A stretch of 64,000 bases of DNA from Rubrivivax gelatinosus IL144. GTDB lineage: Bacteria > Pseudomonadota > Gammaproteobacteria > Burkholderiales > Burkholderiaceae_C. The notes under the pieces were generated by a model. It saw only the letters and a list, made by a program, of their open reading frames with translations. It did not search any database and had not been told where the DNA came from. Each line of letters begins with the position of its first letter. The first letter of the stretch is position 1. A program made the position numbers and the translations under genes. This document shows positions 44,296 to 60,763 of the stretch, one piece after another. The DNA is taken from NCBI RefSeq assembly GCF_000284255.1, contig NC_017075.1:4836001-4900000 (forward strand), read 5' to 3'.

Positions 44296-44806
44296 TGCCC
44301 GTTGCGCTCGTTCGCCTGCATCGGCGCGAGGCACGCCAGGAGGCCGCCGCCGGGGGCTCCGGCTCGCGGACCGGCGCTGCGCGCCGGCTTCGTTGCGCTG
44401 CTCGGATTCGGGGTCGCGCGGCCCAACTCGCTGCGCTCACTGCGTTCGCTCCGCTCAAACAGTCGGCCGCGAGTCAGATCACGATGCGCGCTGCGCGCGC
44501 CGACCCCGAAGCCTCCGCTGCTCACCCGCGAAAGTCGCCCCCAGCGACGGCCCCCTGCCGTGCCCACAACGAGCGGTGGCGCACCGCCTGTCTGTATGCC
44601 ACCAGCGGCGAACGAGCAGGTCGTCGGGGCGTGTCGCGGAGTGAAGTATTAGGAGGAGGGCGGGCGCCAGCCCGCCCGGGGGACATGAACGCAGCGGCAC
44701 GCCCCGGCGGCCTGCGGACGCGCCGATGCATGAATGCGCGGCGGCCGGCTCACGCGCCCATGTCGGCGAACGCGGACCGCCGGCCCGAACACAGGGACGC
44801 CACACC
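44296..44806. other. 511-base gap inside the transporter operon
   Basis: No gene is supported here. It holds three imperfect 9-mers in tandem (CTGCGCTCA, CTGCGTTCG, CTCCGCTCA at 44431-44457), a stretch that reads like decayed coding DNA in several frames, and copy A of a dispersed hairpin repeat at 44622-44712. The permease would be separated from the ATPase in mRNA by a structured leader, or may have its own promoter here. Confidence 0.6.
44622..44712 (+). repeat. Dispersed hairpin repeat, copy A
   Basis: The element has outer arms GGGGCGTG and CACGCCCC, then GAAGTATTAGGAGGAG, an 8-bp stem GGGCGGGC/GCCCGCCC (44658-44677) and GGGGGACATGAACGCAG. It is nearly identical to copy B (49247-49336, opposite strand). 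The core also occurs as copy C (60523-60567). Confidence 0.85.
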
Positions 44807-45907
44807 ATGACCCGCACCCCCGACCTCCCCCGCTGGGTCGACGTCGCCGTGCTGCCGCTGGTGAACCTGGCGGCGGCGCTGCTGGTGGCCGGTGGCGTGA
44901 TGGCGCTGGTGGGCTTCGAGCCGCTGCAGGTGATGAAGCTGCTGGCACAGGGCGCGTTCGGCAGCCGCATCGGCTGGGGCTACACGCTGTACTACGCGAC
45001 GACCTTCGTCTTCACCGGGCTGTCGGTGGCCGTGGCCTATCACGCCGGGCTGTTCAACATCGGCGGCGAAGGCCAGGCGATGCTGGGCGGGCTGTGCGCC
45101 GGGCTGGTGGCGCTGGCCGCCTCCAGCGTGCTGCCGGCCTGGCTGATGCTGCCGCTGATGGTGGTGGCGGCCGCCGCCGGCGGCTGCGCCTGGGCCGCGG
45201 TGCCGGGCGCGCTGCAGGCCTGGCGCGGCAGCCACGTCGTCATCACGACCATCATGTTCAACTTCGTCGCCGCGGCGCTGCTGGGCTGGCTGCTCGTCGG
45301 GCCGCTGAAGGAGCCCGGCAACATGACGCCCGAGAGCGCCGCCTTCGCCGACTCGGCACACCTGCCGGGCCTGCACGAGGCGCTGGGCTGGATCGGCGTC
45401 GAGTGGCCGAAGACGCCGCTGAACCTGTCGCTGGGGCTGGCCGCGGCCGCCGCCGTCGGCGTCTGGGCGCTGCTGTGGAAGACGCGCGCCGGCTACGCCA
45501 TCCGCGCCGTCGGCTTCGCCCCCGAGGCGGCGCGTTATGCCGGCATCGCGCCCAAGCGCACGGTGCTGCTGGCGATGGCGATCTCGGGGGCGCTGGCCGG
45601 GCTGGTGGGGGTCAACGAGATCGCCGGCGTGCACGGCCGGCTGATCCCCGACTTCGTCGCCGGCGCCGGTTTCGTGGGCATCGCCGTCAGCCTGATCGGG
45701 CGCAACCACCCGCTGGGCATCGTGCTCGCGTCGCTGCTGTTCGGCGCGCTGTACCAGGGCGGCGCGGAGCTGGCCTTCGAGTTGCCGGGTTTCTCGCGCG
45801 ACATGGTCGTGCTGCTGCAGGGGCTGGTGGTGCTGTTCGCCGGGGCGATGTCGCGCATCGGCGCGCCGGCGCTGGCGCGGCTGTTCGGGAGGCCGGCGCG
45901 TGGATGA
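44807..45907 (+). CDS. Nucleoside ABC transporter permease 1
   Basis: This is an inner-membrane permease of the BPD_transp_2 (RbsC-like) family, 366 residues from the ATG in CACACCATGACCCG. Several hydrophobic helices are visible (VLPLVNLAAALLVAGGVMALVG at the start). The signature GLFNIGGEGQAMLGGL near residue 85 is typical of guanosine/nucleoside permeases, and the EAA-like GFAPEAARYAGI contacts the ATPase. It overlaps permease 2 by eight bases. A longer in-frame start at 44726 would add a non-membrane Arg-rich tail and is rejected. Confidence 0.92.
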   Translation: MTRTPDLPRWVDVAVLPLVNLAAALLVAGGVMALVGFEPLQVMKLLAQGAFGSRIGWGYTLYYATTFVFTGLSVAVAYHAGLFNIGGEGQAMLGGLCAGLVALAASSVLPAWLMLPLMVVAAAAGGCAWAAVPGALQAWRGSHVVITTIMFNFVAAALLGWLLVGPLKEPGNMTPESAAFADSAHLPGLHEALGWIGVEWPKTPLNLSLGLAAAAAVGVWALLWKTRAGYAIRAVGFAPEAARYAGIAPKRTVLLAMAISGALAGLVGVNEIAGVHGRLIPDFVAGAGFVGIAVSLIGRNHPLGIVLASLLFGALYQGGAELAFELPGFSRDMVVLLQGLVVLFAGAMSRIGAPALARLFGRPARG

Positions 45908-46868
45908 GCTGGCGATCGGCTCGCTGGTGGCGAGCACGCTGCGGGTGTCGGTGCCGCTGATCCTGTGCGCGCTGGCCGGGCTGCTGTCCGAACGCGCCGG
46001 CGTCATCGACCTGGGCCTCGAAGGCAAGATGCTCGCGACCGCCTTCGCCGCCGCCGCCACCGGCGCGGTGACGCAGTCGCTGCCGGCGGCGCTGGCGGTG
46101 GCGCTGGCCGTCGGCCTGGCCTTGTCGATGCTGCAGGGCTACGCCTGCGTCACGCACGGCGGCGACCAGGTCGTGTTCGGCATGGCGATCACGATGACCG
46201 CCGCCGGCGCCACCGTCGTGCTCGGGCTGGCCTGGTTCCAGCAGGGCGGGCAGACGCCGCCGCTGGACGACGCGGTGCGCCTGGGCCCGTGGTTCACCGC
46301 GCTGGGCGAGCAGGTGGGGCGGCTGCCGGGCATCGGCCCGGGGCTGGCGCTGGCGCTGTTCGGCCACACGGCGCTGGTCTACGGCGCGCTGGCGCTGGTG
46401 GCCGCCATCTGGTGGCTGCTGTGGCGCACCCGCTTCGGGCTGCGGCTGCGCGCCGTCGGCGAGAACCCGGCGATGGTCGACGCCGCCGGTGTCGGCGTCG
46501 CGCTGCTGCGCTACCAGGCGCTGTCGCTCAACGGCCTGCTGTCGGCGCTGGCCGGCTGCTCGCTGGTGCTGGCGCAGAACCCGTCGTTCATCCCGAACAT
46601 GACCGCCGGCCGCGGCTACATGGCGCTGGCGGCGATGATCTTCGGCAAGTGGCACCCGGCCGGCGCGCTGGCGGCCTGCCTGCTGTTCGGTTTCCTCGAC
46701 GCGGTGTCGATCCGGCTGCAGGGCGCCGAGCTGCCGCTGGTCGGCACGGTGCCGGTGCAGGCCATCCAGGCGCTGCCCTATCTGCTGACGGTGGTGCTGC
46801 TGGCCGGCTTCATCGGCCGCTCGCGCGCGCCGGCGGCGCTGGGCCGGCCTTACGTGAAGGAGCGCTGA
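45900..46868 (+). CDS. Nucleoside ABC transporter permease 2
   Basis: This is the second inner-membrane permease of the importer, 322 residues, starting at a GTG that overlaps the end of permease 1. The signature GVIDLGLEGKMLATAFAAAA near residue 35 and LRAVGENPAMVDAAGVGVALLRYQAL, the ATPase-contact loop, place it with the NupC/YufQ-type partner of permease 1. Its stop codon shares one base with the cdd start. Confidence 0.93.
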   Translation: MDELAIGSLVASTLRVSVPLILCALAGLLSERAGVIDLGLEGKMLATAFAAAATGAVTQSLPAALAVALAVGLALSMLQGYACVTHGGDQVVFGMAITMTAAGATVVLGLAWFQQGGQTPPLDDAVRLGPWFTALGEQVGRLPGIGPGLALALFGHTALVYGALALVAAIWWLLWRTRFGLRLRAVGENPAMVDAAGVGVALLRYQALSLNGLLSALAGCSLVLAQNPSFIPNMTAGRGYMALAAMIFGKWHPAGALAACLLFGFLDAVSIRLQGAELPLVGTVPVQAIQALPYLLTVVLLAGFIGRSRAPAALGRPYVKER

Positions 46869-47287
46869 TGCAGCCCGACGACGAGACGATGCAGCGCCTG
46901 GTCGACGCCGCGCGGGCGGTGCGCCTGAACGCCTACGCGCCCTACTCGCGCTTCGCCGTCGGCGCCGCGCTGCTGGACGCCGAGGGCCGTGTGCATGCCG
47001 GCGCCAACGTCGAGAACGCCGCCTACCCGCAGGGCTGGTGCGCCGAGACCTCGGCGCTGGCGGCGATGGTGGCCGCCGGCGGCCGGCGCGTGCGCGCCGT
47101 CGTCGTCGTCGGCGCCGGGCCGCGGCCGCTGACGCCTTGCGGCGGCTGCCGCCAGAAGCTGCGCGAGTTCGCCACCGCCGACTGCCCCGTCTGGAGCGCC
47201 GACGAACACGGCGTCACCGCGCGCCACACGCTGGGCGCGCTGCTGCCCGCGGCCTTCGGGCCCGACCATCTGGAGAACACGCCATGA
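46868..47287 (+). CDS. cdd: Cytidine deaminase
   Basis: This enzyme converts (deoxy)cytidine to (deoxy)uridine. It has 139 residues, the short tetrameric class. The zinc site is GWCAETSALAAM plus PCGGCRQKLREF, that is, three cysteines rather than His and two Cys. NVENAAYPQ binds substrate. It is coupled to both neighbours (one-base overlap with the permease, four-base overlap with the phosphorylase), so uptake and breakdown are made together. Confidence 0.96.
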   Translation: MQPDDETMQRLVDAARAVRLNAYAPYSRFAVGAALLDAEGRVHAGANVENAAYPQGWCAETSALAAMVAAGGRRVRAVVVVGAGPRPLTPCGGCRQKLREFATADCPVWSADEHGVTARHTLGALLPAAFGPDHLENTP

Positions 47288-48093
47288 ACGAGAGCATCGC
47301 CGCCAGCGTGCAGCGCCTGGCCGCGCTGGGCCCGGCGCCCGCCGTCGCCGTCGTGCTGGGCAGCGGCTGGGACGGCATCGCCGCGCTGGTCGACGACCCG
47401 GTCGACGTGCCGTATGCCGAGCTGCCGGCCTTCCCGCGGCTGAGCGTGGCGGGCCACGCCGGCGTGCTGCGCGCCGGGCGCGTGGGCGGCACGCCGGTGT
47501 GGCTGCTGCGCGGGCGCAAGCACGCCTACGAAGACGGCGACGCGGCCGGCATGAAGGGCGCCATCCGCACGCTGGCCGCCGCCGGCTGCCGCACGCTGGT
47601 GCTGAGCAACGCCGCCGGCAGCCTGGACGCGGCGATGCCGCCGGGCTCGCTGATGCTGATCGCCGACCACCTGAACGTCGTGCAGCGCACGCCGCTGCAC
47701 GGCGAGCCGGGCAACGACCGTTTCGTCGACATGGGCCGCGCCTACGACCCGGCGCTGCGCGAGCTGGCGCGCCAGGTGGCCGCGGCCCAGGGCATCACGC
47801 TGCCCGAAGGCGTCTACGCCTGGGTGCTGGGGCCGCAGTTCGAGACCCCGGCCGAGATCCGCATGCTGGCGGCGATGGGCGCGCAGGCGGTGGGCATGAG
47901 CACCGTGCCCGAGACCATCCTGGCGCGCCACGCCGGGCTGCACGTGCTGGGGCTGTCGATGTTCACCAACATGGCCGCCGGCCTGTCGGCCGAGACGCTG
48001 AGCCACGAGCACACGATGGCCGTGGCGCGCGGCGGCGCCGACGACGCGGCGCGGCTGCTGGTGGCGCTGCTGCCGGTGCTGGCGGCGGCCTGA
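47284..48093 (+). CDS. Purine nucleoside phosphorylase (trimeric class, PunA/XapA-like)
   Basis: This enzyme phosphorolyses inosine/guanosine-type nucleosides to base and ribose 1-phosphate. It has 269 residues. Phosphate-binding VVLGSGWDGIAALV and RGRKHAYEDGD, base-site LSNAAGSLD, GPQFETPAEIRML and GMSTVPETI, and SMFTNMAAGLS with the purine-binding Asn are all visible. It ends the first nucleoside block. The natural downstream enzymes deoC and deoA lie about 12.7 kb away after the accessory region. Confidence 0.95.
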   Translation: MNESIAASVQRLAALGPAPAVAVVLGSGWDGIAALVDDPVDVPYAELPAFPRLSVAGHAGVLRAGRVGGTPVWLLRGRKHAYEDGDAAGMKGAIRTLAAAGCRTLVLSNAAGSLDAAMPPGSLMLIADHLNVVQRTPLHGEPGNDRFVDMGRAYDPALRELARQVAAAQGITLPEGVYAWVLGPQFETPAEIRMLAAMGAQAVGMSTVPETILARHAGLHVLGLSMFTNMAAGLSAETLSHEHTMAVARGGADDAARLLVALLPVLAAA

Positions 48094-48145
48094 AACGGCT
48101 TCAGCCCTCGCGCGTGAAATCGCGCTCGGGCCTGAGGCTGGCGTA

Positions 48146-48163
48146 CAGCGCCTTCCGGCGCTG
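48146..48163. terminator. Bidirectional hairpin between convergent genes
   Basis: CAGCGCC, TTCC and GGCGCTG form a perfect 7-bp stem with a 4-base loop between the phosphorylase and the convergent binding-protein gene. There is no T-run on either side. Confidence 0.4.
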
Positions 48164-48174
48164 CGCGTCCCGCC

Positions 48175-49077
48175 TCAGAGCTGGTAGCCCAGCACCATCG
48201 CGACCCCGGCTTCCTTGTTGGGGCGCAGGATGCTGTCGCGTGTCATCCGGCTCATCTTGATGGCCAGCTTGTCGCCGACGAACCACTTGCGATAGAGCGT
48301 GTCGGCCTCGCCGCTGGCGTACAGGCGCGCCAGCGTGCGGTCGACGGCGGCGAGCAGCGCCTTGTCGTCCTTGCGCACCATCACGCCATAAGGTTCGACC
48401 GACAACGCCAGCGTGCTGAGCTGGAACTTGTCGGCCGAGCCGTCGGCCGAAGCCAGGCCTTGCAGCAGCGAGTCGTCCTGCGCGAAGGCGCGCACCTTGC
48501 CGGCCTTCAGCGCGGCATACGCCTCGTTGTTGTTCGGGAAGACCTGCAGCTTGAGATGCACCTCGGTCTCGGCCAGGCGGGTGAAGAGCTTCTCGGACGT
48601 CGTGCCCTTGCTCAGCGCCAGCGGCAGGCCGTCCAGGTCCTTCAGCGTCGTGACCGGCGTGTCCTTGGGCGTCAGCACGCGCATCTGGGCGACGAACATC
48701 GTGTAGCTGAACGCCACCTGCTCCTGCCGCGCCTTGGTGTTAGTGGTGGAGCCGCACTCCAGGTCGATCTCGCGCGCCAGCAGCTTGGGGATGCGCTCGG
48801 CGCCGCTGACCACCTTGTACTGGACCTGCAGTTCGGGCAGCTTCAGCTCGCGCTTCAACTCCTCGACGGCGGCCAGGCACAGGTCGACCGAGTAGCCGAC
48901 CGGGCGCTTGTTCTCGTCGAGGTACGAGAAGGGCCGCGCCGCTTCGCGCACGCCCAGCGTGATGGTCTTGGTGGACTTGATGCGGCTGATCGTGTCGCCC
49001 GGGGTCTGGGCACTCGCAACACCGCAGGCCGCCAGCAGCGTGATGACTGCCAGCCGGCCGAAACGCAGGGACGCCAT
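48175..49077 (-). CDS. Amino acid ABC transporter substrate-binding protein (glutamate/aspartate type)
   Basis: This periplasmic binding protein has 300 residues starting MASLRFGRLAVITLLAACGVASAQ, a signal peptide with a Cys that is not in an ideal lipobox. The family 3 solute-binding fold shows in ITLGVREAARPFSYLDENKRPVGYSVDLC, in RIPKLLAREIDLECGSTTNTKARQE (core DLECGSTTNT, typical of glutamate/aspartate binders) and in KWFVGDKL. No permease or ATPase genes are near, so it is an orphan or uses a distant transporter. Confidence 0.88.
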   Translation of the reverse strand: MASLRFGRLAVITLLAACGVASAQTPGDTISRIKSTKTITLGVREAARPFSYLDENKRPVGYSVDLCLAAVEELKRELKLPELQVQYKVVSGAERIPKLLAREIDLECGSTTNTKARQEQVAFSYTMFVAQMRVLTPKDTPVTTLKDLDGLPLALSKGTTSEKLFTRLAETEVHLKLQVFPNNNEAYAALKAGKVRAFAQDDSLLQGLASADGSADKFQLSTLALSVEPYGVMVRKDDKALLAAVDRTLARLYASGEADTLYRKWFVGDKLAIKMSRMTRDSILRPNKEAGVAMVLGYQL

Positions 49078-49381
49078 GGGGGGCCGTCTTTCGGGAGATC
49101 GGGGAGGGCGAGATGGTAAATCTCGGATGGCGTCCATCCCATGACCAGCAGGGGGTGGGGCGTCGCTGTCGTTTCGGCGGGGTGTGACCGATTGCTCGCC
49201 TCGGCTGCGTCGTTGTGGTGCACGTCCGCTTGCGCCGGTGGGGGCCGGCCGCCGGGGCGTGTCCCTGCGTTCATGTCCCCCGGGCGGGCTGCGCCCGCCC
49301 TCCTCCTAATACTTCACTCCGGGACACGCCCCGACGGCCGGCGGGCGGCGCGGAGGTGCACTGACGGGCTCGCTCGACGCT
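49078..49381. other. 304-base gap with repeat copy B
   Basis: The first part is the upstream region of the binding-protein gene. The middle contains repeat copy B (49247-49336). I see no gene. This marks roughly where conserved gene content gives way to accessory DNA. Confidence 0.6.
49247..49336 (-). repeat. Dispersed hairpin repeat, copy B
   Basis: Read on the minus strand this matches copy A almost base for base: arms GGGGCGTGTC and GACACGCCCC, GAAGTATTAGGAGGAG, stem GGGCGGGC/GCCCGCCC with loop GCA, then GGGGGACATGAACGCAG. Its orientation is opposite to copies A and C. Confidence 0.85.
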
Positions 49382-49903: not shown

Positions 49904-50121
49904 GTTTGATGGCGAGTCATCGTTTGGCGCTCGGATCCCTGCAGACGGAGCGACCGATTACTGACCATTCTCGGCACGCAACGGCGCGACTCGAATGCTG
50001 CCGCCAGTCCCGCAGAGGATGACTCTCATAGCGCGGCGGGGCAGCGGGCACCTCAAGGTGCGAACGTGGGGCGGGCGGCGGGCGTGCTACAGGAACTTGC
50101 CGCCCACCGATATGCGCCGGT

Positions 50122-50376: not shown

Positions 50377-50423
50377 ACGGGCACAGCATGGCTATCCCGG
50401 GTTGCCGACTCCACACTCTTTGT

Positions 50424-51238: not shown

Positions 51239-52246
51239 TCATGCGTCGCTGGCTCCACGCTTCGTCAGAGATGTATTTCTCTTGCGATTTATTTTCCGCA
51301 TACCAGCGACCATCTCCTCAAATTTCCGTTGACGCTCTTCTATTTCAGCAAGTAACTCATCCGGCGGGTCGACGATGTCATTGATATAACGAAATAGGCG
51401 ATCCATACCTTCTTGATTTGGCCCAATCTCGATCACGGCTATAGCTCGGGGAGTGAGGTGGTCTGCAAGCACCCTAAAGAGGTGATCCAAATCAGTTGTA
51501 AACGAAGAAAGGGCCTTCTTTAGATTTTTATCGCCGACCCGACGACGGACCGCAGTGAGTATTTTTGCATTGTGGCGATACAGGTCTACGCCAATATCAT
51601 GATTGAGAACTACGCAACGCTCGCGGGTCGCAACATCAACCAAATCCTTTGCGTTTCGAATATCCTCAATCCGGACCCCCTCCCGAATCCTGTAAATCTC
51701 CGCGGTAGTCGCAATTATGGGAATATGGAAGAAGATGTGATGATCAACAAGTGACTTTTCGACTTGGCTCTCAATGGCTTCACCAACCTTGTTAACCATA
51801 GCGTAGGCGAGCTGGTAGATTGCCTGCGCAATCGACTTTTCATTAGCGCCATCGGCAAGCAACTCCGTTCCTTTGCTGCATACCGGCCCAAGTACGCGCG
51901 GATATTGCCATCCGTATTTAAACCGTTGAGGAACAAAGTGATCAAACGGGTTAAGAAAATCTGTAGGAGCGAGCTCACGAAATCCTCCATACTGGTCAGG
52001 CGAAAATACCCAACGAGTCCCTGGGTGCCGATACTTGCATTCAACCATCAAGTCCATAAAGCAGCCGCGCGTTATGTACGAGGCGTCAATGTCGTAAGAG
52101 AACTCACGCTCGATCGCGAGTTCGTCTTCCTTTAGGTACGAGTAGTGAAACTTGGCCACGCATCCTTGCGCCTGCAAATAGGCCAGGAGGTCACTCTCAA
52201 GGGGCAGACCGGAGGAGAGCAGCGATTGTTGCCAGGGCTTGGGCAT
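51239..52246 (-). CDS. Unknown protein with PD-(D/E)XK-nuclease-like motif
   Basis: I do not recognise the family. The 335-residue protein has an N-terminal region with ESDLLAYLQAQGCVAKFHYSYL, then EREFSYDIDASYITRG and FMDLMVECKYRHPGTRW. The D-x-D...D-x-x-VECKYR pattern is what one expects from a PD-(D/E)XK nuclease core (Asp, Glu, Lys). The C-terminal third is charged and partly coiled (LAEIEERQRKFEEMVAGMRKINRKRN). Codon use is lower in GC than the core genes. A defence-related nuclease is likely but unproven. Confidence 0.6.
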   Translation of the reverse strand: MPKPWQQSLLSSGLPLESDLLAYLQAQGCVAKFHYSYLKEDELAIEREFSYDIDASYITRGCFMDLMVECKYRHPGTRWVFSPDQYGGFRELAPTDFLNPFDHFVPQRFKYGWQYPRVLGPVCSKGTELLADGANEKSIAQAIYQLAYAMVNKVGEAIESQVEKSLVDHHIFFHIPIIATTAEIYRIREGVRIEDIRNAKDLVDVATRERCVVLNHDIGVDLYRHNAKILTAVRRRVGDKNLKKALSSFTTDLDHLFRVLADHLTPRAIAVIEIGPNQEGMDRLFRYINDIVDPPDELLAEIEERQRKFEEMVAGMRKINRKRNTSLTKRGASDA

Positions 52247-52256
52247 TGTAGTAATG

Positions 52257-52363
52257 GCATCTTAGGCGCCAGACGCGAATACTTCTCATGCGCCACCGAC
52301 CAATAGATCTCGCCGAACCGCCCTTTCGCGCACGACGGGTGGTTGACGCAAAAAAGGTTAGAT
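52257..52363 (-). other. attC-like site between two leftward cassette-type genes
   Basis: On the minus strand, ATCTAAC (52357-52363) overlaps the stop codon of the DUF3800 gene and fits the attC 5' core RYYYAAC. GCGTCAACCACC follows. About 100 bases on, CCTAAGAT (52257-52264) lies just before the next gene where GTTRRRY would be expected, with two changes. It is a weak site. Confidence 0.35.
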
Positions 52364-53431
52364 TCGCTCTCCCGCGAGAGCTTTCACCATGAAGTCAACG
52401 GCATTCACTCCACCAATCTCCTCCGTGCCAAGCGCGCGTGGCGTAACTACCGGAGCCGGCCAGATGGCATGAACAATAAACCGCTCGATTCCCGCCTGCT
52501 GGAGCTGCTCGGTCAGCTCGTCCTTTGCGCCACGCGCGATATTGCCAGCGAAGTAAGCAGCTGCACCAGCCAAAAGATCCACGACCTGCAGCTGAGGAAG
52601 GGTACGCGAGTCGGCAAATTTCAGCGTTCCCGCCCTCAAAGGAAACTCGAACTTCCTTCGGTCGTAGCCGATTACTACCGGCGAAGCGGCAGGATTCATC
52701 ATTGCAGCAAATGTTTCTCGCTCTGCCGCCACCGGCTTGGACTCGTCGTGTATGGCATAGAACTCTTCACCGAACTGCGTACCCCATACGCTCAACTGAT
52801 AGAAGACAGAGCCAATGGCAGGATCTAGAGCGAGGTAGTTCACGCCATCCAGTATTTCGTCAATCTCCCTCTGGGCAATAAGATAGGGACCGAATGATGC
52901 CCGGTGGCGAGGCTCGCTGCAGTTCTCGTAGAGCGCTCTAACCGCCTCGAAGAATTCAGCCTTGTTACCTGCATTCGGCGTTCTTATCATCCGCACGAAG
53001 GTGGATAGAAATAGTTCGAATCTCGCTTCCCCACAAAATACAGGCGTCACGTAGTAATGAAGATTGGCTATCGCAATATTTGCACCACGCTCGTAAAGAT
53101 CTAGGCCAGCACGATTAGCAAGCGTCTCCTCGATGATGTCAACAGCCTTGCACATCGCCATGTAGCGCTTGTGAGTAATCGATACTTTGACTCGCATAGG
53201 CGTCATGAGCGGCGACGCAAGAAATGCTAGAAGCCGGCGCCTGCCTGCATCTGATTTCTTCAGTGATGTGAACTTAACTTCCTGGGTTTGCGGTGTTCGC
53301 ACAAGGTTCAGGAGGTCATTCGCCTCCTCCCGACCGAAGTCAGAAGAAGCAAGAACAAATACAGGCTGATTGGGATCCAGCAAGGCGGCACCAGTATTAC
53401 CAGCCTCATCAAAGTGCACTTCAGGCGGCAT
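52358..53431 (-). CDS. DUF3800 domain protein
   Basis: This 357-residue protein (from MPPEVHFDEAGNTG) has the DUF3800 hallmark FDEAGNTGAALLD at the N-terminus and the C-terminal LPQLQVVDLLAGAAAYF, the conserved Asp pair of this RNase H-like family. A GTG six codons upstream is an alternative start. DUF3800 proteins are common in defence islands and mobile DNA; their activity is not established. Its stop codon overlaps an attC-type 7-mer. Confidence 0.75.
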   Translation of the reverse strand: MPPEVHFDEAGNTGAALLDPNQPVFVLASSDFGREEANDLLNLVRTPQTQEVKFTSLKKSDAGRRRLLAFLASPLMTPMRVKVSITHKRYMAMCKAVDIIEETLANRAGLDLYERGANIAIANLHYYVTPVFCGEARFELFLSTFVRMIRTPNAGNKAEFFEAVRALYENCSEPRHRASFGPYLIAQREIDEILDGVNYLALDPAIGSVFYQLSVWGTQFGEEFYAIHDESKPVAAERETFAAMMNPAASPVVIGYDRRKFEFPLRAGTLKFADSRTLPQLQVVDLLAGAAAYFAGNIARGAKDELTEQLQQAGIERFIVHAIWPAPVVTPRALGTEEIGGVNAVDFMVKALAGERI

Positions 53432-53627
53432 AGATATTCGCAGCTCCACGCGTCATTTGCAGCATCACCAGGCCGCGCAGACCATTCAATTCCTGCGCAA
53501 CAGACTTTCCACAAGGAAATCAGCCTCATCGCCCATGCGATATCCATCGTCCGGCTGACGCTGCCATAGGCACCATGAAGAAGTAGCGTTGGTTACTAGG
53601 TGACTCTAGTCACTCCGCCAAGCCGAC

Positions 53628-53694
53628 CAAGCCCGCCGCTCACCTTTGAGGGAAAGCCCCGCCCTGCCGCGGCCGTCGGGCAGCCGGTGTAGGT
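53628..53694 (+). repeat. Partial repeat of the left flank of the intact IS110-type element
   Basis: CCAAGCCCGCCG, then CCCTGCCGCGGCCGTCGGG and GCCGGTGTAGG are shared with 58950-59052, just left of the intact IS element. About 40 bases present there are missing here. This copy has no transposase beside it. Confidence 0.6.
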
Positions 53695-54068: not shown

Positions 54069-54093
54069 TTGTGTTCCTCGGTTCCAAACAAAG

Positions 54094-54211
54094 ATCTAAC
54101 GAACATCAGCGCCAATGTGCGATTCGTATCCGAAAATTGAATGTTGCGACGTGCAACAACATTCGGCAATCCTGCGAACAGATGATGCGGATCGGACTTT
54201 GCGGGCCTAAC
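54094..54211 (-). other. Two attC-type cores upstream of the DUF3892 gene
   Basis: On the minus strand, GTTAGGC (54205-54211, preceded by CATTC) and GTTAGAT (54094-54100, preceded by GATGTTC) both fit the attC 3' core GTTRRRY. Between them is a hairpin GAATGTTG/CAACATTC. The outer core borders the left end of IS copy A. Confidence 0.5.
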
Positions 54212-55519
54212 GAATGAAAGGCACATCCCTTCGCATCCCACCCACTCAAGGTTTTCCCTCAGGCAAGGACGGCCGCCCGGTACGACGATGGGGTTGCGAA
54301 ATCTCATCCTCCACCGGGCTGACGCAAGGAGATGTCCATGACGATTCTGTTTATCGGCATCGATCTGGCCAAGAACGTGTTTGCCCTGCACGGTGTCGAC
54401 GAGCGCGGCAAGCCTGCGCTGGTGCGCCCGGCAGTGCGCCGCGACCAGTTGCTCGAAGCGGCGGCCAAGCTGCCGCCATGCACCATCGGCATGGAAGCCT
54501 GCTCTGGCGCGCACCACTGGGCTCGGCGCTTCCAGGACTTCGGCCACACGGTGCGGCTGATGGCGCCCAAGTTCGTCGTTCCCTACCGCATGAGCGGGCG
54601 CCGCGGCAAGAACGACGCGGCCGACGCGGCCGCGATCTGCGAGGCCCTGCAGCGCCCGGCGATGCGCTTCGTGCCGGTCAAGTCGACGCAGGCGCAGTCG
54701 CGCCTGGCGGTGCATACGGCGCGCCAAGGCTGGGTGAGCGCGCGCACGGCAGTCATCAACCGCCTGCGCGGCGTGCTCAGCGAGTTCGGCATCGTGCTGC
54801 CGCTCAAGGCCGCTACGGTGCGCAGCCGCGCCGGCGAGCAGCTCGACACCGTGCCCGGCTGGGTGCAGACCGTGTGCCGCGACCTGCTGGCCGAACTGCA
54901 GCGCCTGGACGAGCGCGTGGCCGCGTACGACGAGCACATTCGCCTGATGGCCCAGGCCGACGACCGCGCCCGCGCGCTCATGGCCATGCCCGGCATCGGC
55001 CCGACCACTGCAGCGCGCTGCTGGCCAGCATCGGCTACGGCCACGACTTCGCCAACGGCCGCCAGCTCGCCGCCTGGATGGGCCTGGCGCCCGGCCAGTA
55101 CAGCTCGGGCGGCAAGAACCGGCTCGGGCGCATCACCAAGGCCGGCGACGCCTACCTGCGCACGTTGTTCATCATGGGAGCGCGTGCCGTGCTGGCCGCC
55201 GCGACCAACAAGCACGACCGGCTGAGCCGCTGGGCCACCGCGCTGGTCGAGCGCCGCGGCTACTGGAAGGCCGTGGTCGCCATCGCCGCCAAGAACGCGC
55301 GCATGGCCTGGGCGATGCTCGCCAAGGACGAAGAGCTCAAGCCCATTGCCTGAGCGCGCGCCACGCCGCCAAAGCCAACCGCCAAACTCATCGGAGAAAG
55401 GCGACCTCGAATCCGTTTCTGCCACCGCGTGACGCCAGCGTTGATGGATCAAGGTTGGACCTGCGCGGGGAGTGCTCGTTTGACTCAAGGCGGCGCCGGA
55501 CACGGCGACCGCGGCTAAC
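54212..55519 (+). mobile_element. IS110/IS1111-type insertion sequence, copy A
   Basis: This element of about 1.3 kb holds one transposase gene. The left boundary is set where similarity to copy B begins (GAATGAAA...GGACATCCC), next to GCCTAAC. The right boundary is near a second TAACGAATG at 55516-55524. Both ends therefore abut an attC-like core, as in IS1111 elements that target attC. No long terminal inverted repeats are visible, as expected for this family. The ~160-base tail after the transposase is where IS1111-group bridge RNAs are encoded. Boundaries are approximate. Confidence 0.7.
54338..55353 (+). pseudogene. IS110-family transposase, frameshifted (copy A)
   Basis: This is a DEDD-type transposase. 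The first part reads MTILFIGIDLAKNVFALHG, GMEACSGAHHWARRF and RRGKNDAADAAAICEA (the catalytic acidic residues) up to MAMPGIGPTTAA. Near 55013 one base is missing. The second part (LLASIGYGHDFANGRQ, AWMGLAPGQYSSGGKNRLG with the conserved Ser, RISRWATAL-type end) continues in another frame. Without the deletion it would have about 339 residues. AAGGAG lies 6 bases before the ATG at 54338. The copy is probably inactive unless the gap is a sequencing error. Confidence 0.88.
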
Positions 55520-55655
55520 GAATGGAGCCCCCGCGCGCGTCTTTCATCAGGGCCAGCAGCATCGAACGCTGCATCAAAGGCCGGTTGTAGTTCTGCAGTC
55601 CGCACCTTAGTTCTTGCGCCGTCAGGCGGCGCAATGGCAGTACACCGTCGAAGTG

Positions 55656-55686
55656 CCTTGATGAATCGATGATCGATTCATCAAGG
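55656..55686. repeat. Perfect 15-bp inverted repeat with single-base centre
   Basis: CCTTGATGAATCGAT and ATCGATTCATCAAGG are exact complements around one G. It is AT-richer than its surroundings. It could be an operator, a recombination site or a hairpin; no neighbouring gene explains it. Confidence 0.7.
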
Positions 55687-55818
55687 ACTCTATTTACTTG
55701 ACAGGCGGGGATGCCCTTGTAGTTGGATTTGAGGTGCCGTGGAGGCAGATGACTGGCCGCGGAGGGACGATTACCACTGGAGCCCGTAGCGGCCAGGCGT
55801 TGGCTGCCGCAACGGGTC

Positions 55819-55839
55819 GCCTCGAATGAGTAATTAGAC
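55819..55839 (-). other. 5' half of an attC-like site
   Basis: On the minus strand, 5 bases after the stop of the membrane protein gene, GTCTAAT (55833-55839) is followed by TACTCATTCGAGGC. This closely follows the common attC start GTCTAACTATTCATTCAAGCC. The 3' half is not clear, perhaps lost when IS copy A inserted. Confidence 0.55.
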
Positions 55840-55843
55840 ACCA

Positions 55844-56251
55844 CTAGCTCAGCTGCTTGCGTAACAACACAAGTTTCAATACAAGTGCCCACATATATCC
55901 CGCGAGGATGGCGGACAAGATCGTTACGAAGCAGTAGGCGGTGCGAACGGCATCGTAATGGCTAGGCACCGAAGTGCTATCTGAGGCGTACGCAAGGAAT
56001 GATTCTTTGGCAAGCTTGATTGCATCTGGTGCAAATATTAGCGCCACAGAAAGTGCCATAACCGATACCGGCAACGCTTTGCTTAACAGAACGGCGGTTA
56101 CAAACCTCTTCGCTGCGACGTTGTCCTCTCTGTGGGCCTTTGGCACCGTTTCAAGCGCCTTCGCAATCTCCGTGTACCAAAGGCTGAATAGTATTGCAGC
56201 GACAGCCATCAGCAGGCTGGACGCTGAAAGTAGATCGCTCATTGATGTCAC
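55844..56251 (-). CDS. Hypothetical membrane protein
   Basis: Unknown family, 135 residues. Three hydrophobic segments are visible: LSASSLLMAVAAILFSLWY, VLLSKALPVSVMALSVALIF and TAYCFVTILSAILAGYMWAL, with a positively charged loop (KAHREDNVAAKRF) after the first. The GTG start overlaps the stop of the preceding gene; an ATG three codons later is an alternative. The two genes look translationally coupled, so their products may work together. Confidence 0.6.
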   Translation of the reverse strand: MTSMSDLLSASSLLMAVAAILFSLWYTEIAKALETVPKAHREDNVAAKRFVTAVLLSKALPVSVMALSVALIFAPDAIKLAKESFLAYASDSTSVPSHYDAVRTAYCFVTILSAILAGYMWALVLKLVLLRKQLS

Positions 56252-56817
56252 GGGTTAGGCGGAACGCCGAACTTGGCGCAAAGGCGATTGTAGGAGGATG
56301 GAGATATCTCGTAGGTGGATACGCTCCCCTTCTTCTTTCCCACAGGTGAGAGGCTACCATCGATGTCGGCGAGCGCCTTGTTCAATTCATCCACCACGTT
56401 CTGACTGTTAATGACAACTGTGTAGTCTAGAGCGTTGTTCTGTCGACTCGCTGCAGTAAGTGACGCACTCAAAGTTCTCTCGACATGAGTTCTGAGTTGG
56501 TATTGGTATTTTGAGATTACCGATCGGATGAGCGACCGACTCTCAGTCAATGTCGTCTGAAAGAGACTGCTGACGGTTCGTTCGTCCGGAATAACGCCAT
56601 TGAACGCAGTTTCGATAAGAAGCAGCAGCCTGTACTCAAGCATGTCACTGCCGCGCTTGAAGACCTTCTGACCGCGGAACATTGCCAAGTACTCGTTGAT
56701 CGATGCGCCGAGGCATGCGTTCAGACGGGTATTCAAGTCAGCCGCATTGCAGCCGAGAATTGCAGCTATCTCGGCTTCCTCGGCGGGCGCGAGATTTAGG
56801 GTAGCGGTGATCTGCAA
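56248..56817 (-). CDS. Hypothetical protein of a cassette-type pair
   Basis: Unknown family, 189 residues. I start it at the TTG at 56817 (LQITATLNLAPAEEAEIAAIL), 7 bases after AGGGAG. The frame can be extended to a GTG at 56853, but that would run through the attC-like site. The protein is hydrophilic and mostly helical by appearance (FKRGSDMLEYRLLLLIETAF, SRSLIRSVISKYQYQLRTHVE). Codon use is AT-richer than core genes. The following membrane protein overlaps its stop. Confidence 0.6.
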   Translation of the reverse strand: MQITATLNLAPAEEAEIAAILGCNAADLNTRLNACLGASINEYLAMFRGQKVFKRGSDMLEYRLLLLIETAFNGVIPDERTVSSLFQTTLTESRSLIRSVISKYQYQLRTHVERTLSASLTAASRQNNALDYTVVINSQNVVDELNKALADIDGSLSPVGKKKGSVSTYEISPSSYNRLCAKFGVPPNP

Positions 56818-56834
56818 AGCTGACTCCCTGTGGT

Positions 56835-56896
56835 GTCTAACGTTTGAATTCACCGGCCTGCGCGGCTTTACGCGCAGACCCGGCGGAATGAGAGAC
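56835..56896 (-). other. attC-like recombination site
   Basis: On the minus strand this 62-base segment begins GTCTCTC at the stop codon of the Mrr-type gene and ends AAACGTTAGAC. The 3' core GTTAGAC fits GTTRRRY; the 5' core differs from the expected GTCTAAC at two bases. Between them, CCGGGTCTGCGCG and CGCGCAGGCCGG pair around TAAAGC, the folded shape expected of an attC. The next gene's ribosome-binding site lies about 10 bases beyond it. Confidence 0.6.
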
Positions 56897-57870
56897 TAGA
56901 GCGCACCATCATACAATATTTCCGGTAGCGCCATTTCTGGAGACCAGATGCCAGAGGTAACTTTGACATATGACTTGCAGAGAGCGGCAATCTTGCTCTC
57001 TGTCCCAAAACGAAGAGTCTGTCGTTGAACTTCGGTCAGACTTTCGATGGCGTTGGAGCAAAAGCCATATGTCGACAGATACAAGCCGCCTGAAATCTGC
57101 TCATTGACTATAACGTTCAGAAATTCGCTGATTGCTCCTGCGCCAACGCGCTGACCTGAACGCCAATGTTTAACTTCGACGTAGTACGTATGTGTCTTGG
57201 ATGCCACTTGGCAAGTGAGAACAATGTCTTTGCCCCCGTCTTTGCTGCCAGGAGTAAGTCGCGCCTCGAATCCCAAGCCCTCGAAAACCTCTGTGAGGAG
57301 CCTTTCCATCTCTCTCCATTCAATTTCATCCAAGTAGCGAGGATTTCTTACGATGAGAGAAATGAGCTTTCGACTCAGCTCGCGCCGGATTAAATTGACC
57401 AGTGAGACATCGACGGCCGGAATCTGCTCAAGCCGGCTGACCCATGACCGCAGGGAATCCAAGTCGATTAGTTCAATGCCAACAGGTGTGCTTCGGCGCA
57501 GAGCTTCGCGTGCTGCATAGGTAAACCGAGCGTTGGTTACTAGCATAGCGCGGGAAATCCCAGCGCTCACAGCCGCACCAAGAACGCGATGTACTGCGTC
57601 CGTACCTACGGCGCCTTGGCGGTAATGCTTGTATTCGATTGCGATTTCATCTGCTTCCTGATCGCCTGGCGTTCCCTTTCTTGCGATGAAATCGACGCCG
57701 ATATCCCGCTGGTGACCTACGGACTCAATTGTGTAGCCATCCTCAGTTAATAGGGACCCAAGAATCTCGCCCATCATTTTCTCTGCATCTTGTGGAGATG
57801 CAGATGGTGTCGCCGAGGCTTCAAGACGGCGAATGAGGGCCTTCAGTTCTTCCCGGCGATTGCTGTCCAT
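56896..57870 (-). CDS. Tandem Mrr-type restriction endonuclease-like protein
   Basis: This 324-residue protein has two PD-(D/E)XK (Mrr_cat) modules. The first has GHQRDIGVDFIARKG and IAIEYKHYRQGAVGTDAV with RAMLVTNARFTYAAREAL. The second has SKDGGKDIVLTC and YYVEVKHWRSGQRVGAGAI. Both Asp and the E-x-K cores are present, so both sites could be active. Such proteins usually cut modified or foreign DNA. No methylase is nearby, which suits a type IV-like enzyme. The stop codon borders an attC-like site. Confidence 0.8.
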   Translation of the reverse strand: MDSNRREELKALIRRLEASATPSASPQDAEKMMGEILGSLLTEDGYTIESVGHQRDIGVDFIARKGTPGDQEADEIAIEYKHYRQGAVGTDAVHRVLGAAVSAGISRAMLVTNARFTYAAREALRRSTPVGIELIDLDSLRSWVSRLEQIPAVDVSLVNLIRRELSRKLISLIVRNPRYLDEIEWREMERLLTEVFEGLGFEARLTPGSKDGGKDIVLTCQVASKTHTYYVEVKHWRSGQRVGAGAISEFLNVIVNEQISGGLYLSTYGFCSNAIESLTEVQRQTLRFGTESKIAALCKSYVKVTSGIWSPEMALPEILYDGAL

Positions 57871-57884
57871 TGTTGAGCTTTAAC

Positions 57885-58628
57885 GAATGAAATGGACATC
57901 CCCATAGCGTCCCACCCGCCTGAGGTTATCCCTCAGGCAACGACGGCCGCCCGGTACGACGATGGGGTTGCGAAATCTCATCCTCCACCCGGCTGACGCA
58001 AGGAGATGTCCATGACCATTCTGTGTATCGGCATCGATCTGGCCAAGAACGTGTTTGCCCTGCACGGTGTCGACGAGCGCGGCAAGCCTGTGCTGGTGCG
58101 CGCGGCGGTGCGCCGCGACCAGTTGCTCGAAGCGGTGGCCAAGCTGCCGCCGTGCACCATCGGCATGGAAGCCTGCTCGGGCGCGCACCACTGGGCTCGG
58201 CGCTTCAGGACTTCGGCCACACGGTGCGGCTGATGGCGCCCAAGTTCGTCGTGCCCTACCGCATAAGCCGGCGCCGCGGCAAGAAAGGCGCGGCGGACGC
58301 CGCCGCGATCTGCGAAGCGCTGCAGCGCCCGGCGATGCGCTTCGTGCCAGTCAAGTCAACGCAGGGGCAGTCGCGCCTGGCGGTGCACGTGCGCCGGCAT
58401 GGCAGTCATCAACCGCCCGCGCAGCGTGCTCAGCGAGTTCGACATCGTGCTGCCGCCCAATGCCGCCACGGTGCGCAGTCGCGCCAGCGAGCACTGGACA
58501 CCGTGCCCGGATTGGTGCAGACGGTGTGCCGAACCCAGTTGGCGGAACTACAGGGCCTGGATGAACGTTTGGCCGCGTACGAGGAGCACAGTCGGCTGAT
58601 AGCCAAGCCCACGACCGCGCCGGATTAG
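57885..58628 (+). mobile_element. Decayed IS110/IS1111-type element, copy B
   Basis: Its first 450 bases are nearly the same as copy A, including TAACGAATGAAA at the left junction and GACGGCCGCCCGGTACGACG further in. Similarity stops near 58622, so the 3' third of the transposase and the right end are missing. It sits right upstream of the Mrr-type gene start, where the minus strand reads CATTCGTTAAAG, an attC-like core. It is in the same orientation as copy A, 3.67 kb away. Confidence 0.75.
58012..58628 (+). pseudogene. IS110-family transposase remnant (copy B)
   Basis: The remnant begins MTILCIGIDLAKNVFALHGVDERG and continues through GMEACSGAHHWARRF. It shifts frame near 58207, again in the SRLAVHV stretch near 58390 where several codons present in copy A are missing, and near 58490. 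The KNDAAD acidic motif of copy A reads KKGAAD here, a lost catalytic Asp position. The C-terminal Ser-containing domain is absent. It cannot encode an active enzyme. Confidence 0.88.
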
Positions 58629-58633
58629 CCTAT

Positions 58634-58834
58634 TTACTTTCGGCCACCACCACCTGCGGGTGCGTTGCTGCGACCACCACCCGATGGACTACCTGTGCCA
58701 CTTGGCCAACCACCGCCGTTGCCTTGGCCACGCCCGCCGCCCCCGCCACCGGAACTGCCGCCACCAGAGCGGCCGCCGCCCTGCGAGCCACCACCGCCAC
58801 TACGACCACCGCCCGAATTTCCACCTTTGCTCAT
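58634..58834 (-). CDS. Glycine-rich small protein
   Basis: A 66-residue protein starts MSKGGNSGGGRSGGGGSQGG, with AGGAG 8 bases before the ATG. More than half of the residues are Gly, with Ser, Arg and Gln spacers and the ending SNAPAGGGGRK. Codons for Gly are varied (GGT, GGC, GGG), so this is not a simple DNA repeat. No function can be inferred; the composition resembles low-complexity RNA-binding tails. It lies between IS copies B and C, with an intrinsic terminator upstream. Confidence 0.55.
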   Translation of the reverse strand: MSKGGNSGGGRSGGGGSQGGGRSGGGSSGGGGGGRGQGNGGGWPSGTGSPSGGGRSNAPAGGGGRK

Positions 58835-58898
58835 ATGCAAACTCCTGACCGAAAGATTGAGGAAGCGAATTGCCGGCCGGCACTGGCAACACAGGCGG

Positions 58899-58922
58899 AA
58901 AAAAGACGCCGAAAGCGGCGCC
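58899..58922 (-). terminator. Intrinsic terminator, leftward
   Basis: On the minus strand GGCGCCG, CTTT and CGGCGTC form a 7-bp stem with one G-U pair, followed by TTTTTT. It would stop leftward transcripts before they reach the glycine-rich gene, so that gene needs its own promoter between 58835 and 58898. Confidence 0.6.
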
Positions 58923-59047
58923 GGTTACAGATGATTCTGAGCCCCCCCACCAAGCCCACCAAGCCCGCCGCCCCCCCTTCGAGGGGACGCCGGCCCGCCG
59001 GCGCGAACAGACCCGCACCGCCCTGCCGCGGCCGTCGGGTGGCCGGT

Positions 59048-60351
59048 GTAGGGAATACGAAGGGACTTCCCGCAACCAGCACGTCGCCGAGACGCCAGGA
59101 TTGAGGGAGGGATCAGTCCGACGCTGGAAAGGAGAAGTCCGTGGAAAAGCCTCCTGCAATGCCTGTCGTCCGAGTAGGCGTGGATCTGGCCAAACGCGTG
59201 ATCCAGGTGCACGCGGTGGATGCCGCCGGGCACGTGGTGGTGGCCCGAGCGCTGCCGCGCGAGAAGTTTCTGGCCTGGTGCGCGCAACTGCCGCCGGGCT
59301 GTACGGTGGCGATGGAGACCTGCAGCGGCGCGCACCACTGGGCCCGCCGGCTGCAAGAGATGGGTTTGCGGCCGCGGCTGCTGGCGGGCCATTTCGTCGG
59401 GCCGTACCGACTGCAGGGCCGGCGCGCCAAGAACGACGCCAACGACGCGGCGGCCATCTGCGAGGCAGCCAGCCGCCCGCAGATGCACTTCGTGCCGGTC
59501 AAGAGCGCCGAGCAGCAAGCGGTGCTGGCCGTGCACCGGCTGCGCGAGGGCTACAAGGTCGAGCGCACGGCCTGCATCAACCGCATCCGCGGCCTGCTCG
59601 CCGAGTTCGGCATCAGCTTCGCTCAGACACCCGAGGCGCTGCGCGAAGGCCTGGCCGACGCGCTGGAAGACGCCACCAGCGAGATGCCGTGGCTGGCTCG
59701 CGTGGCACTGCAACGTGCGCGGCTGCAGTGGGTCGAACTCGATTGCCACATCGCCTGGTGCGACGAGCGCATCACCGCACACCTCAAGGCCGACGCGCAG
59801 GCGCAGACGGCCGCCAGGCTCATCGGCATCGGAGCGGTGGGCGCCTCGGCAGCGGTGGCCACCGTCGGCGACTTCCGCCAGTTCAAGAGCGGCGCGCAGT
59901 TCGGATCCTGGGTCGGCCTGGCGCCGAGCCAGAACTCCAGCGGCGGGAAAGCCAAACTCGGACGCATCACCCGACACGGTGACACCTACCTGCGCACCCT
60001 GCTCATCCAGGGCGCCAAGTCCGCTGTCATGACCGCGCACAAACGCGACGACCGGATCTCGCGCTGGCTGGTGCAACTCACCGCGCGCGTGGGCTGGCAA
60101 AAGGCCGTCGTGGCCATGGCCAACAAGAACGCCCGCATCCTCTGGGCGGTACTCGCCAAGGGACAGCGCTTCGATCCCGACCACGTCAGCAGCAAACCCG
60201 GCGGCGCGGCCGCCGCCTGTTGACGCGACCGGCCCCGAATTCACCGACTTCCTCCAGGCGTGCGGCAGAAGATGCATCACACAGGTCAGACCGGCGGCGG
60301 GCAAGCTCGACTAATCCAATGTCGCGCCACAGGCGTCGACGAGTAGGGAAT
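59048..60351 (+). mobile_element. IS110-family element, copy C (intact)
   Basis: This is a different lineage from copies A and B. The boundaries proposed are the 9-base direct repeats GTAGGGAAT at 59048-59056 and 60343-60351, which enclose about 1.3 kb with one complete transposase gene. The last 120 bases are non-coding and could encode a bridge RNA of the IS1111 group; the first 90 bases are the other candidate. The boundaries are inferred from the repeat alone. Confidence 0.55.
59141..60223 (+). CDS. IS110-family transposase (intact)
   Basis: This 360-residue transposase carries the full DEDD set: Asp in VRVGVDLAKRVIQVH, Glu in AMETCSGAHHW, two Asp in RRAKNDANDAAAICEA. The C-terminal transposase_20 domain holds the conserved Ser in SQNSSGGKAKLGRIT. 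A GTG start follows GAAAGGAGAAGTCC at a good distance; a downstream ATG (MPVVRVGVD) is possible. IS110 enzymes recombine DNA guided by an element-encoded bridge RNA. Confidence 0.94.
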   Translation: MEKPPAMPVVRVGVDLAKRVIQVHAVDAAGHVVVARALPREKFLAWCAQLPPGCTVAMETCSGAHHWARRLQEMGLRPRLLAGHFVGPYRLQGRRAKNDANDAAAICEAASRPQMHFVPVKSAEQQAVLAVHRLREGYKVERTACINRIRGLLAEFGISFAQTPEALREGLADALEDATSEMPWLARVALQRARLQWVELDCHIAWCDERITAHLKADAQAQTAARLIGIGAVGASAAVATVGDFRQFKSGAQFGSWVGLAPSQNSSGGKAKLGRITRHGDTYLRTLLIQGAKSAVMTAHKRDDRISRWLVQLTARVGWQKAVVAMANKNARILWAVLAKGQRFDPDHVSSKPGGAAAAC

Positions 60352-60763
60352 GGAGCCCCGCCGAGCGGTTCGTATCTGGGCCCGCACGGGCAAGCCGTGC
60401 AACAAGGCCGTCTGTAGATGTGCAGTCTGTTCTCTGTGCCGATGCAGCCTCGCGGCGCACGCCTCAGCTGGAAGACGATTGACCGGAGCCATCGCGTGTT
60501 GACTCGGTGGGAAGTCCCTGTAGAAGTATTAGGAGGAGGCCCGGCGCAGCCGGGCCGGGGGACATGACCGGAACCGGCCACCCGGCGGCCGTGGCACGCC
60601 GCGGCGCTCGCACGCGATAAGCGCGAGCGCAACGCCAAAACACACCCGCCGCGCGCAACCAAACAAAAGGCAAGCCGACGACAACTACAGGCGCCATCAA
60701 CCAACGCCCCACACCCCGGTGTCAAACTCCACCCCGACACCCATCCCCGCCCGCCCACCCGAA
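60224..60763. other. 540-base gap between IS copy C and deoC
   Basis: The first part is the right end of IS copy C (to about 60351). Repeat copy C lies at 60523-60567. No gene is supported between 60352 and 60763. The deoC promoter should be here, but I see no convincing pair of hexamers. Confidence 0.5.
60523..60567 (+). repeat. Dispersed hairpin repeat, copy C (core only)
   Basis: GAAGTATTAGGAGGAG and GGGGGACATGA are kept as in copies A and B. The stem is GGCCCGGC/GCCGGGCC with loop GCA: two stem positions differ from the other copies and both are compensated on the opposite arm. The outer arms of copies A and B are not recognisable. Confidence 0.8.

Follow-up and report, generated by a model that had tools for sequence, protein, structure and literature searches.

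Hairpin copies in the window

The window analysed here is a stretch of 64,000 nucleotides from Rubrivivax gelatinosus IL144 (NC_017075.1, positions 4,836,001 to 4,900,000); coordinates refer to this window unless they are given in kb or for another locus. It carries three copies (A, B and C) of a hairpin element of about 110 nucleotides and, beside copy C, the remnant of an integron attachment site (attI). From sequence comparisons it appears quite likely that this hairpin is a non-autonomous dispersed element resembling the repetitive extragenic palindromic (REP) sequences, that it became joined to attI, and that the joint units are dispersed platforms without an integrase of their own that would be filled in trans.

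A preliminary description of this DNA had proposed three dispersed copies of a hairpin with an 8-bp stem. All three copies are present and their motifs lie in register, but the longer outer stem had been missed and the genome holds 17 copies altogether. The motif GAAGTATTAGGAGGAG was found at 44643 (+), 49315 (−) and 60523 (+), which corresponds to three matches versus 0.03 expected, and none of 100 shuffles reached this number. The second motif, GGGGGACATGA, occupies corresponding places in all three copies (3 matches vs. 0.61 expected). Taken alone it is weak evidence, since with one mismatch allowed three matches also turned up in 4 of the 100 shuffles, but in register with GAAGTATTAGGAGGAG it is not a chance finding. 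In the complete element, the long outer stem is followed inwards by a conserved internal loop, a variable inner stem and a small loop. In relatives, the two strands of the internal loop read GNAGCGAAGTAAAGGAGGAG and GGGGGACATGAGCGGA; in IL144, the 5' strand ends with GGAGTGAAGTATYAGGAGGAG and the 3' strand is GGGGGACATGAACGSA. Two sub-types of the outer stem exist in the IL144 genome, an A-type ending with GGGGCGTGTCCC and a B-type ending with GGGTGGCCGGT. On the reverse complement of the conserved loop, the strand AAAGGAGGAG looks like a perfect Shine–Dalgarno sequence, and its complement would thus resemble the 3' end of 16S rRNA.

Copy A (44612..44724, plus strand) is a complete single hairpin according to our covariance model. 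It is located in a transporter operon, as had been noted before, with the ATPase gene on one side and the permease gene on the other. Copy B (49235..49346, minus strand) is also complete by the model and lies at the left edge of a variable region. Copy C is interrupted. Its 5' outer arm (59021..59050, plus strand, ends approximate) is separated from the 3' part (60523..60602, plus strand), which comprises the 5' loop strand, the inner stem, the 3' loop strand and the 3' outer arm. The 5' arm is displaced because an IS110-family element sits within copy C. Two inner-stem positions of copy C differ from copies A and B and both are compensated in the opposite arm, so that they pair again, in line with the preliminary description.

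The inserted element (59051..60522, plus strand, left end approximate) is IS1111-like and encodes a transposase (59141–60223) with DEDD_Tnp_IS110 and Transposase_20 domains. It has subterminal inverted repeats, which presumably assign it to the IS1111 type. An insertion sequence (IS) copy with 99.6% identity splits another IL144 hairpin at 2298 kb, and the orthologous hairpins of the related genome G024 are unoccupied and reveal the target. The IS110-family element targets the hairpin loop and has split copy C, and the repeated motif is an IS target rather than an IS end. Similarly, the IS110-family element ISPpu9 inserts in REPs of Pseudomonas putida, and both elements have a DEDD transposase and insert at one spot of a palindromic repeat, whereas the repeat families differ (PMC8450116, in the sections of that paper considered here). 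Two related, apparently broken IS110-family fragments are present in the window at 54208–54970 and 57881–58621 (88.5% identical).

Distribution of the hairpin

The covariance model was built from 14 copies. With an E-value threshold of 1e-7 it detected 17 hairpins in the IL144 genome, and three more weak matches were reverse-strand shadows. Of 41 genomes of the genus, 24 carry the hairpin, with up to 54 copies per genome. At class level matches were obtained in 3 of 274 genomes, a number that is a floor because of strict filters. An exact pattern derived from the loop consensus of the relatives retrieved at least 120 stretches in named genomes, 80 of which were listed, and the genera among the matches listed were Rubrivivax, Hydrogenophaga, Rhodoferax, Variovorax, Methylibium, Aquabacterium, Caldimonas, Sulfurisoma and Pseudoxanthomonas. 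The same pattern had no exact match in viral contigs, which gives no sign of viral carriage. Rfam 15 contained no match to the hairpin, either for the window at the gathering score or for the copy A region at E ≤ 5. In the open-access literature, no such repeat was recognised by title, and those works containing the motif letters, among the matches listed, were unrelated by title. The hairpin is a family without Rfam match, a strongly covarying single-strand fold that ranges from Burkholderiales to Pseudoxanthomonas.

For copy A, we inspected 30 loci with the adjacent permease gene in 29 genus genomes. Four of them have hairpins directly upstream of the permease: single ones in IL144 and G024, and diverged doublets in two other species (G012, L252 2733–3034; G027, L241 106–355). 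These doublets may be an old inheritance, or insertion at this junction may have happened more than once. In a fifth permease locus (L231) the hairpin is about 1.1 kb off, on the opposite side. No target site could be read from the copy A junction, since among the 30 loci those without hairpin were too diverged, and the gene beside copy B, present in just 2 of 41 genomes, gave no empty site.

A cluster was seen at 4346–4347 kb of IL144 (L031 8250–9353), where six hairpins lie within 1.1 kb, partly as tandem units of about 252 bp. By eye, its neighbours resemble a tetrahydromethanopterin (H4MPT) formyl-transfer cluster (fwdA/fhcD). In the matching stretch of G024, two hairpin copies were found.

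Selection on the fold

The covariation analysis rests on 129 copies taken from the 80 loci that were listed, several of which belong to one and the same genome. These loci had been found by the exact loop pattern, and conservation of the loop is therefore inflated in this set; the stems lie outside the pattern. Moreover, the alignment was fitted to the covariance model and thus leans towards pairing. With these restrictions, 97.1% of the 3836 stem cells pair, and slid controls reached 34.5–45.1%. Relatedness without structure can beat shuffles, and the slid controls retain this relatedness. Changes on both sides were observed in 30 of the 31 stem pairs, the covariation score was 0.753 versus 0.185 in shuffled alignments, and none of the measures was matched in 500 shuffles. 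Compensated double changes were also seen between the orthologous copies of two species, both for copy A and for the 4346-kb cluster. Among the stem cells, G.T plus T.G pairs numbered 258 versus 15 A.C plus C.A pairs. The excess of G.T indicates that the given strand is the folding one, and it leaves RNA and single-stranded DNA unseparated. Taken together, these data indicate that pairing is under selection on the fold of one strand, while the sequence of the stems is free. The claim of a selected fold, which had rested on the two compensated positions of copy C, is borne out, and the covariance model and copy counts that had been suggested as checks gave overwhelming covariation.

Paired changes might also arise without any selection by hairpin-templated DNA repair (quasi-palindrome correction), which can give any inverted repeat long perfect stems with changes in both arms. 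We consider this explanation improbable. Repair treats both strands alike, yet G.T exceeds A.C 17 to 1, and repair leaves unexplained why conservation peaks in the loop, although the ascertainment by loop pattern inflates loop conservation.

Genomic setting and relation to known repeats

Neighbouring hairpins form inverted pairs in 43 of 45 cases, with their 5' ends facing each other across a median gap of 42 bp; 39 copies are single, of which 18 lie within 250 bp of a locus end. The gene neighbours were assigned with a home-made gene caller. None of the 83 hairpin units overlapped a gene call. When both neighbours were called (n = 53), 38 units were situated between tandem and 15 between convergent genes but none between divergent ones, whereas the background gene pairs of the same loci comprised 310 tandem, 56 convergent and 50 divergent pairs. 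The distance from stop codon to unit had a median of 50.5 bp (84 distances).

These properties recall REPs, which are described as intergenic palindromes that form inverted dimers, occupy tandem or convergent gene settings and serve as IS targets (Di Nocera 2013, PMC3733652; all comparisons with this survey refer to the sections of it considered here). Like the REP, REPIN and BIME repeats with GTAG or CGTC tags, our hairpin is a dispersed intergenic palindrome occurring as inverted dimers, for which the survey gives spacers of mostly 20–100 bp, and it shares with REPs the tandem or convergent gene sites, the G.T pairs, the compensated stem variants and the targeting by insertion sequences. In contrast to REPs of 20–40 bp, it measures about 110 nucleotides, with two nested stems and a conserved loop of about 35 nucleotides. 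It also lacks a terminal GTAG or CGTC tag, and no repeat-flanked gene for a REP-associated tyrosine transposase (RAYT) was found. Some terminal inverted repeats (TIRs) of TIRtrons are likewise double palindromes that form dimers and families, and the sequence GGGGWSAS, present in some of them, is one letter from GGGGACAT. However, TIRtron TIRs are defined as flanking tyrosine transposase genes, and here such flanking on both sides was not seen. By its size, the missing GTAG or CGTC tag and the missing RAYT partner, the hairpin stands outside the defined REP and TIR families. The REP-like DNA element that the preliminary description named as one option is supported: the hairpin is dispersed, intergenic, mostly present as inverted doublets and targeted by an IS110-family element.

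The other option, an RNA that masks or exposes a start site, was rejected. The ATG following the stem is replaced by ACG, ATT or AGT in 13 of 125 copies, even though the search pattern contained ATG, and the reading frame behind it spans anything from 9 to 881 codons. In addition, the units lie behind stop codons and none of 53 is between divergent genes.

The hairpins may be structured RNAs in 3' untranslated regions that affect the stability of the upstream mRNA, its termination or its translation, with dispersal being secondary. The tolerance of G.T but not of A.C, the position shortly after stop codons, the lack of units between divergent genes and the recurrence directly upstream of one permease in 4 of 30 loci are all compatible with such a role, and an inverted doublet supplies one sense copy whichever way it is transcribed. 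On the other hand, single-stranded DNA read on one strand predicts an equal G.T excess, the loop is much more conserved than the stems, presence is patchy across species, and both the IS110-family targeting and the doublets are typical of REPs. We regard an RNA role as the main function as possible but rather doubtful, and both roles could hold.

Dispersed attI sites beside hairpins

Several of the B-type copies near accessory genes of IL144 have about 250 bp in common on their inner side (the leader). BLAST comparison of the leader with the attI regions beside the integron integrase genes (intI) of IL144 (L282) and G024 (L285) gave matches of 31–59 bp with E-values down to 1e-11, and in the multiple alignment leader and intI-adjacent region are collinear over about 170 bp. 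IL144 has an integrase of its own (1237513–1238457 of the genome; 447.9 bits vs. a cut-off of 265), with an array behind it in which attC sites are clear. Because of the match to the intI-adjacent region, the integrase above cut-off and the attC array behind it, we identify the leader as an attI site. As to the genus at large, an integron integrase above the NCBIfam cut-off is present in 30 of 41 genomes, so that this genus is very rich in integrons.

We then used 174 bp of attI, excluding the hairpin, as query for 81 genus genomes (E ≤ 1e-6); since 10 candidates were scored per genome, the resulting counts are floors. Altogether, 21 dispersed attI copies were obtained, six in IL144 and five each in G024, G315 and G316, the fifth of G024 appearing only at an E-value of 4e-4. 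Those of IL144 lie at 316, 656, 2037, 3969, 4168 and 4895 kb, and its integrase is at 1237–1238 kb. A hairpin abuts all 21 dispersed sites (18 intact ones found by the model, the IS-split copy of the window, and two truncated remnants recognised by eye in L292 and L294), whereas next to the integrase genes all four native attI sites are free of hairpins. The distance between hairpin and attI is fixed by a spacer of about 82 bp. One dispersed attI of G316 (L315) matches the native attI of this genome in 169 of 171 positions, in an alignment that stops at the crossover point G|TT; identity with the three other native sites was 88–91%. This crossover is recognisable in 17 of the 21 dispersed copies.

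Integrons typically have one attI site close to the integrase, and clusters of attC sites lacking integrases (CALINs) are regarded as degraded integrons (IntegronFinder 2.0, PMC9024848, in the sections considered here). The dispersed sites agree with integron attI sites and CALINs in their identity with native attI, in ending mostly at G|TT, and in being followed by variable genes, some with attC. They differ from the integrons treated in those sections in that each genome has attI copied to five to six further places, always with a hairpin alongside. Among the open-access papers listed for multiple, orphan or attI-like sites we found no description of dispersed attI.

Two alternative explanations bear on this adjacency. 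Hairpin and attI may have come together by chance in an ancestral integron, the whole block being subsequently duplicated with the hairpin as passive passenger. The sites are old and common to several species, and the joint with its spacer of about 82 bp is always the same, as such duplication would predict. However, the copied unit stops at the 3' end of the hairpin, beyond which the sequence differs from site to site, and hairpins free of attI have dispersed over the genus independently. For both of these reasons, spread driven by the hairpin needs fewer assumptions, and we judge block duplication with a passive hairpin to be the less probable course. Second, the hairpins themselves may be unusual attC-like recombination sites of the integron integrase (IntI), being folded single strands with conserved unpaired bases next to attI. 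This is very unlikely, as R and L core sites were not seen, the hairpin is present in 18 of the 30 genus genomes with intI over the cut-off and also in 6 of the 11 without, and only 4 of the 80 listed loci of named relatives gave an attC-like match.

Cassette turnover at the dispersed sites

Dispersed sites were compared between genomes in 20 pairs. Two weak pairs (161–175 bp, 78–81%) were excluded, which left 18 pairs with orthologous outer flanks at seven sites, and 17 of these, at six sites, were testable, since the inner sequence of one pair comprised just 10 bp. Because they fall into so few sites, these pairs lack independence, and where the crossover has been lost its position is nominal. 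In the testable pairs the outer flanks are 90–99% identical over 561–687 bp, and in the up to 700 bp past the crossover none of the 17 gave a match at E ≤ 1e-8. In nine of these pairs both members have a recognisable G|TT. At the 2037-kb site, IL144 and G024 are 91% identical up to the end of attI and 93% identical beyond the island, with unrelated sequences of 1.49 kb versus 0.9 kb in between. At the 4168-kb site homology between the same genomes halts at the attI end, and at the 656-kb site G024 retains flank and hairpin, not attI. Within G024, two different sites have the same cassette beginning at their G|TT (91% over 337 bp).

A simple scan recognised attC in 4 of the 21 inner stretches and in none of the outer flanks; shuffles predict 0.2. 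One additional attC was seen at L261 3944–4086. The same scan found four attC sites in the native array and missed some there that are visible by eye. By the IntegronFinder 2 default, CALINs are defined by at least two attC sites without integrase; we detected at most one attC per island on the gene strand, using a scan that misses some sites on inner stretches of mostly 1.5 kb.

Each hairpin–attI place is common to two to four of the four sampled species. Because the flanks are shared, most of the spread of the unit must be older than these species. The cassette turnover at the crossover is indirect evidence that the dispersed attI sites may recombine with attC through IntI, and cassette exchange in trans would be the simplest reading of these sequence patterns.

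Proposed mechanism

The following sequence of events would account for these observations. The recognised form of the hairpin is one folded strand, in which two stems, conserved in pairing but not in sequence, surround a conserved asymmetric internal loop; as a rule, two copies behind stop codons face each other with their 5' ends across about 42 bp. A single-strand enzyme of the HUH type may have moved the hairpin in trans. In the R. gelatinosus clade, the hairpin would have become linked to attI at the fixed distance of about 82 bp, and the joint unit occupies seven or more chromosomal places. Each of them may be, or may have been, an integron platform lacking an integrase of its own, at which the chromosomal integrase encoded elsewhere would insert and exchange cassettes in trans. 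In its full form, namely a distributed integron in which a REP-like hairpin scattered attI and one integrase acting in trans swaps cassettes at half a dozen further platforms, this model is, in our opinion, somewhat better than an even bet.

Several findings weigh against this reading, and the first group concerns the mobilising enzyme. A search of the IL144 genome for Y1_Tnp (RAYT) proteins gave no match, and at 25 Y1_Tnp loci of the genus no hairpin was found within 1.5 kb (less at contig ends). Presence of the hairpin was also unlinked to that of Y1_Tnp (11 of 21 genomes with, 13 of 20 without, 41 genomes in total). On these three grounds, we rejected RAYT as mobiliser. In a single exception (L160), one hairpin lies on one side of a RAYT-like gene with degenerate HUH motif. 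This adjacency is probably due to chance, as the gltB-like setting recurs by eye in other loci of the genus. The RAYT-like genes near gltB-like sequence, seen by eye in L096, L108 and L160, form a family of about 250 amino acids, of which some members keep the HUH motif and those of L103 and L160 have a degenerate one.

A second group of adverse findings concerns attI. Its range is narrow: matches were confined to IL144, G024, G315 and G316 among the 81 genus genomes, each of them with multiple copies. When the attI regions of 12 integrase loci were compared with 108 hairpin loci, two short matches (32 and 41 bp) were all that was obtained. Four dispersed attI copies, including that of the window, are defective (two cut short, two with degenerate crossover), and in 17 of the 21 dispersed loci the simple scan found no attC within the first 1.5 kb or less. 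Finally, the sites are shared between species and no recent jump of the hairpin–attI unit was seen; segmental duplication may have been the route by which the unit spread.

We also considered that A-type and B-type copies are the ends of one composite transposon carrying cassettes. This idea was weakened because, at the 2298–2304 kb island, the block in common with G024 starts ahead of the A-type copy and includes a gene, and because the A-type copy at 2039 kb is part of a doublet of its own.

If the distributed integron exists, islands of cassettes without integrase gain an origin other than the decay of whole integrons. Cassette capture would then be spread over the chromosome, compared with the one landing site beside one integrase described in the sections considered of the IntegronFinder 2.0 paper (PMC9024848). 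The same site filled with different cassettes in up to four species would moreover constitute a natural experiment on cassette turnover.

The accessory island and other features of the window

Copies B and C had been described as bracketing an accessory region in opposite orientation, and this arrangement is real. They are the ends of a region that differs from G024, measuring about 10 kb in IL144 and about 2 kb in G024. The block shared with G024 takes in copy B and stops about 13 bp beyond its 5' end. At the other end, copy C adjoins the attI remnant (58892..58937, minus strand), which corresponds to the first 46 bp of the 174-bp query with 93% identity. It is located about 83 bp from the hairpin arm, and the conserved hairpin–attI spacer is visible in the alignments at 58938..59020 (minus strand). 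A second, degenerate unit, which is not counted among the 21, consists of a hairpin 5' arm and part of the conserved spacer (53591..53693, plus strand).

Two groups of accessory genes on the minus strand face away from these units. Those facing away from the second unit (51239..53449) encode a 335-amino-acid protein without Pfam match (51239–52246) and a DUF3800 protein (52358–53449), and those facing away from copy C (56248..57870) a 201-amino-acid protein without Pfam match (56248–56853) and a restriction-type Mrr_cat protein (56896–57870). We infer that both groups are of integron-cassette origin. Across the window and two other islands of IL144, HNH, DUF3800, Mrr_cat and SEC-C proteins are among the cargo. 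The attC scan of the window island found none. With attI reduced to a 46-bp remnant and no attC found, this island is decayed, and the case for the platforms rests on the other copies.

Two further features of the window lie outside the island. A SAM_alpha riboswitch scored above the Rfam gathering score at 25928–26005 (minus strand). Beside the transporter operon, the stretches 38214–39137 and 41841–42764 are 80.7% identical over 934 bp and probably represent a duplicated gene.

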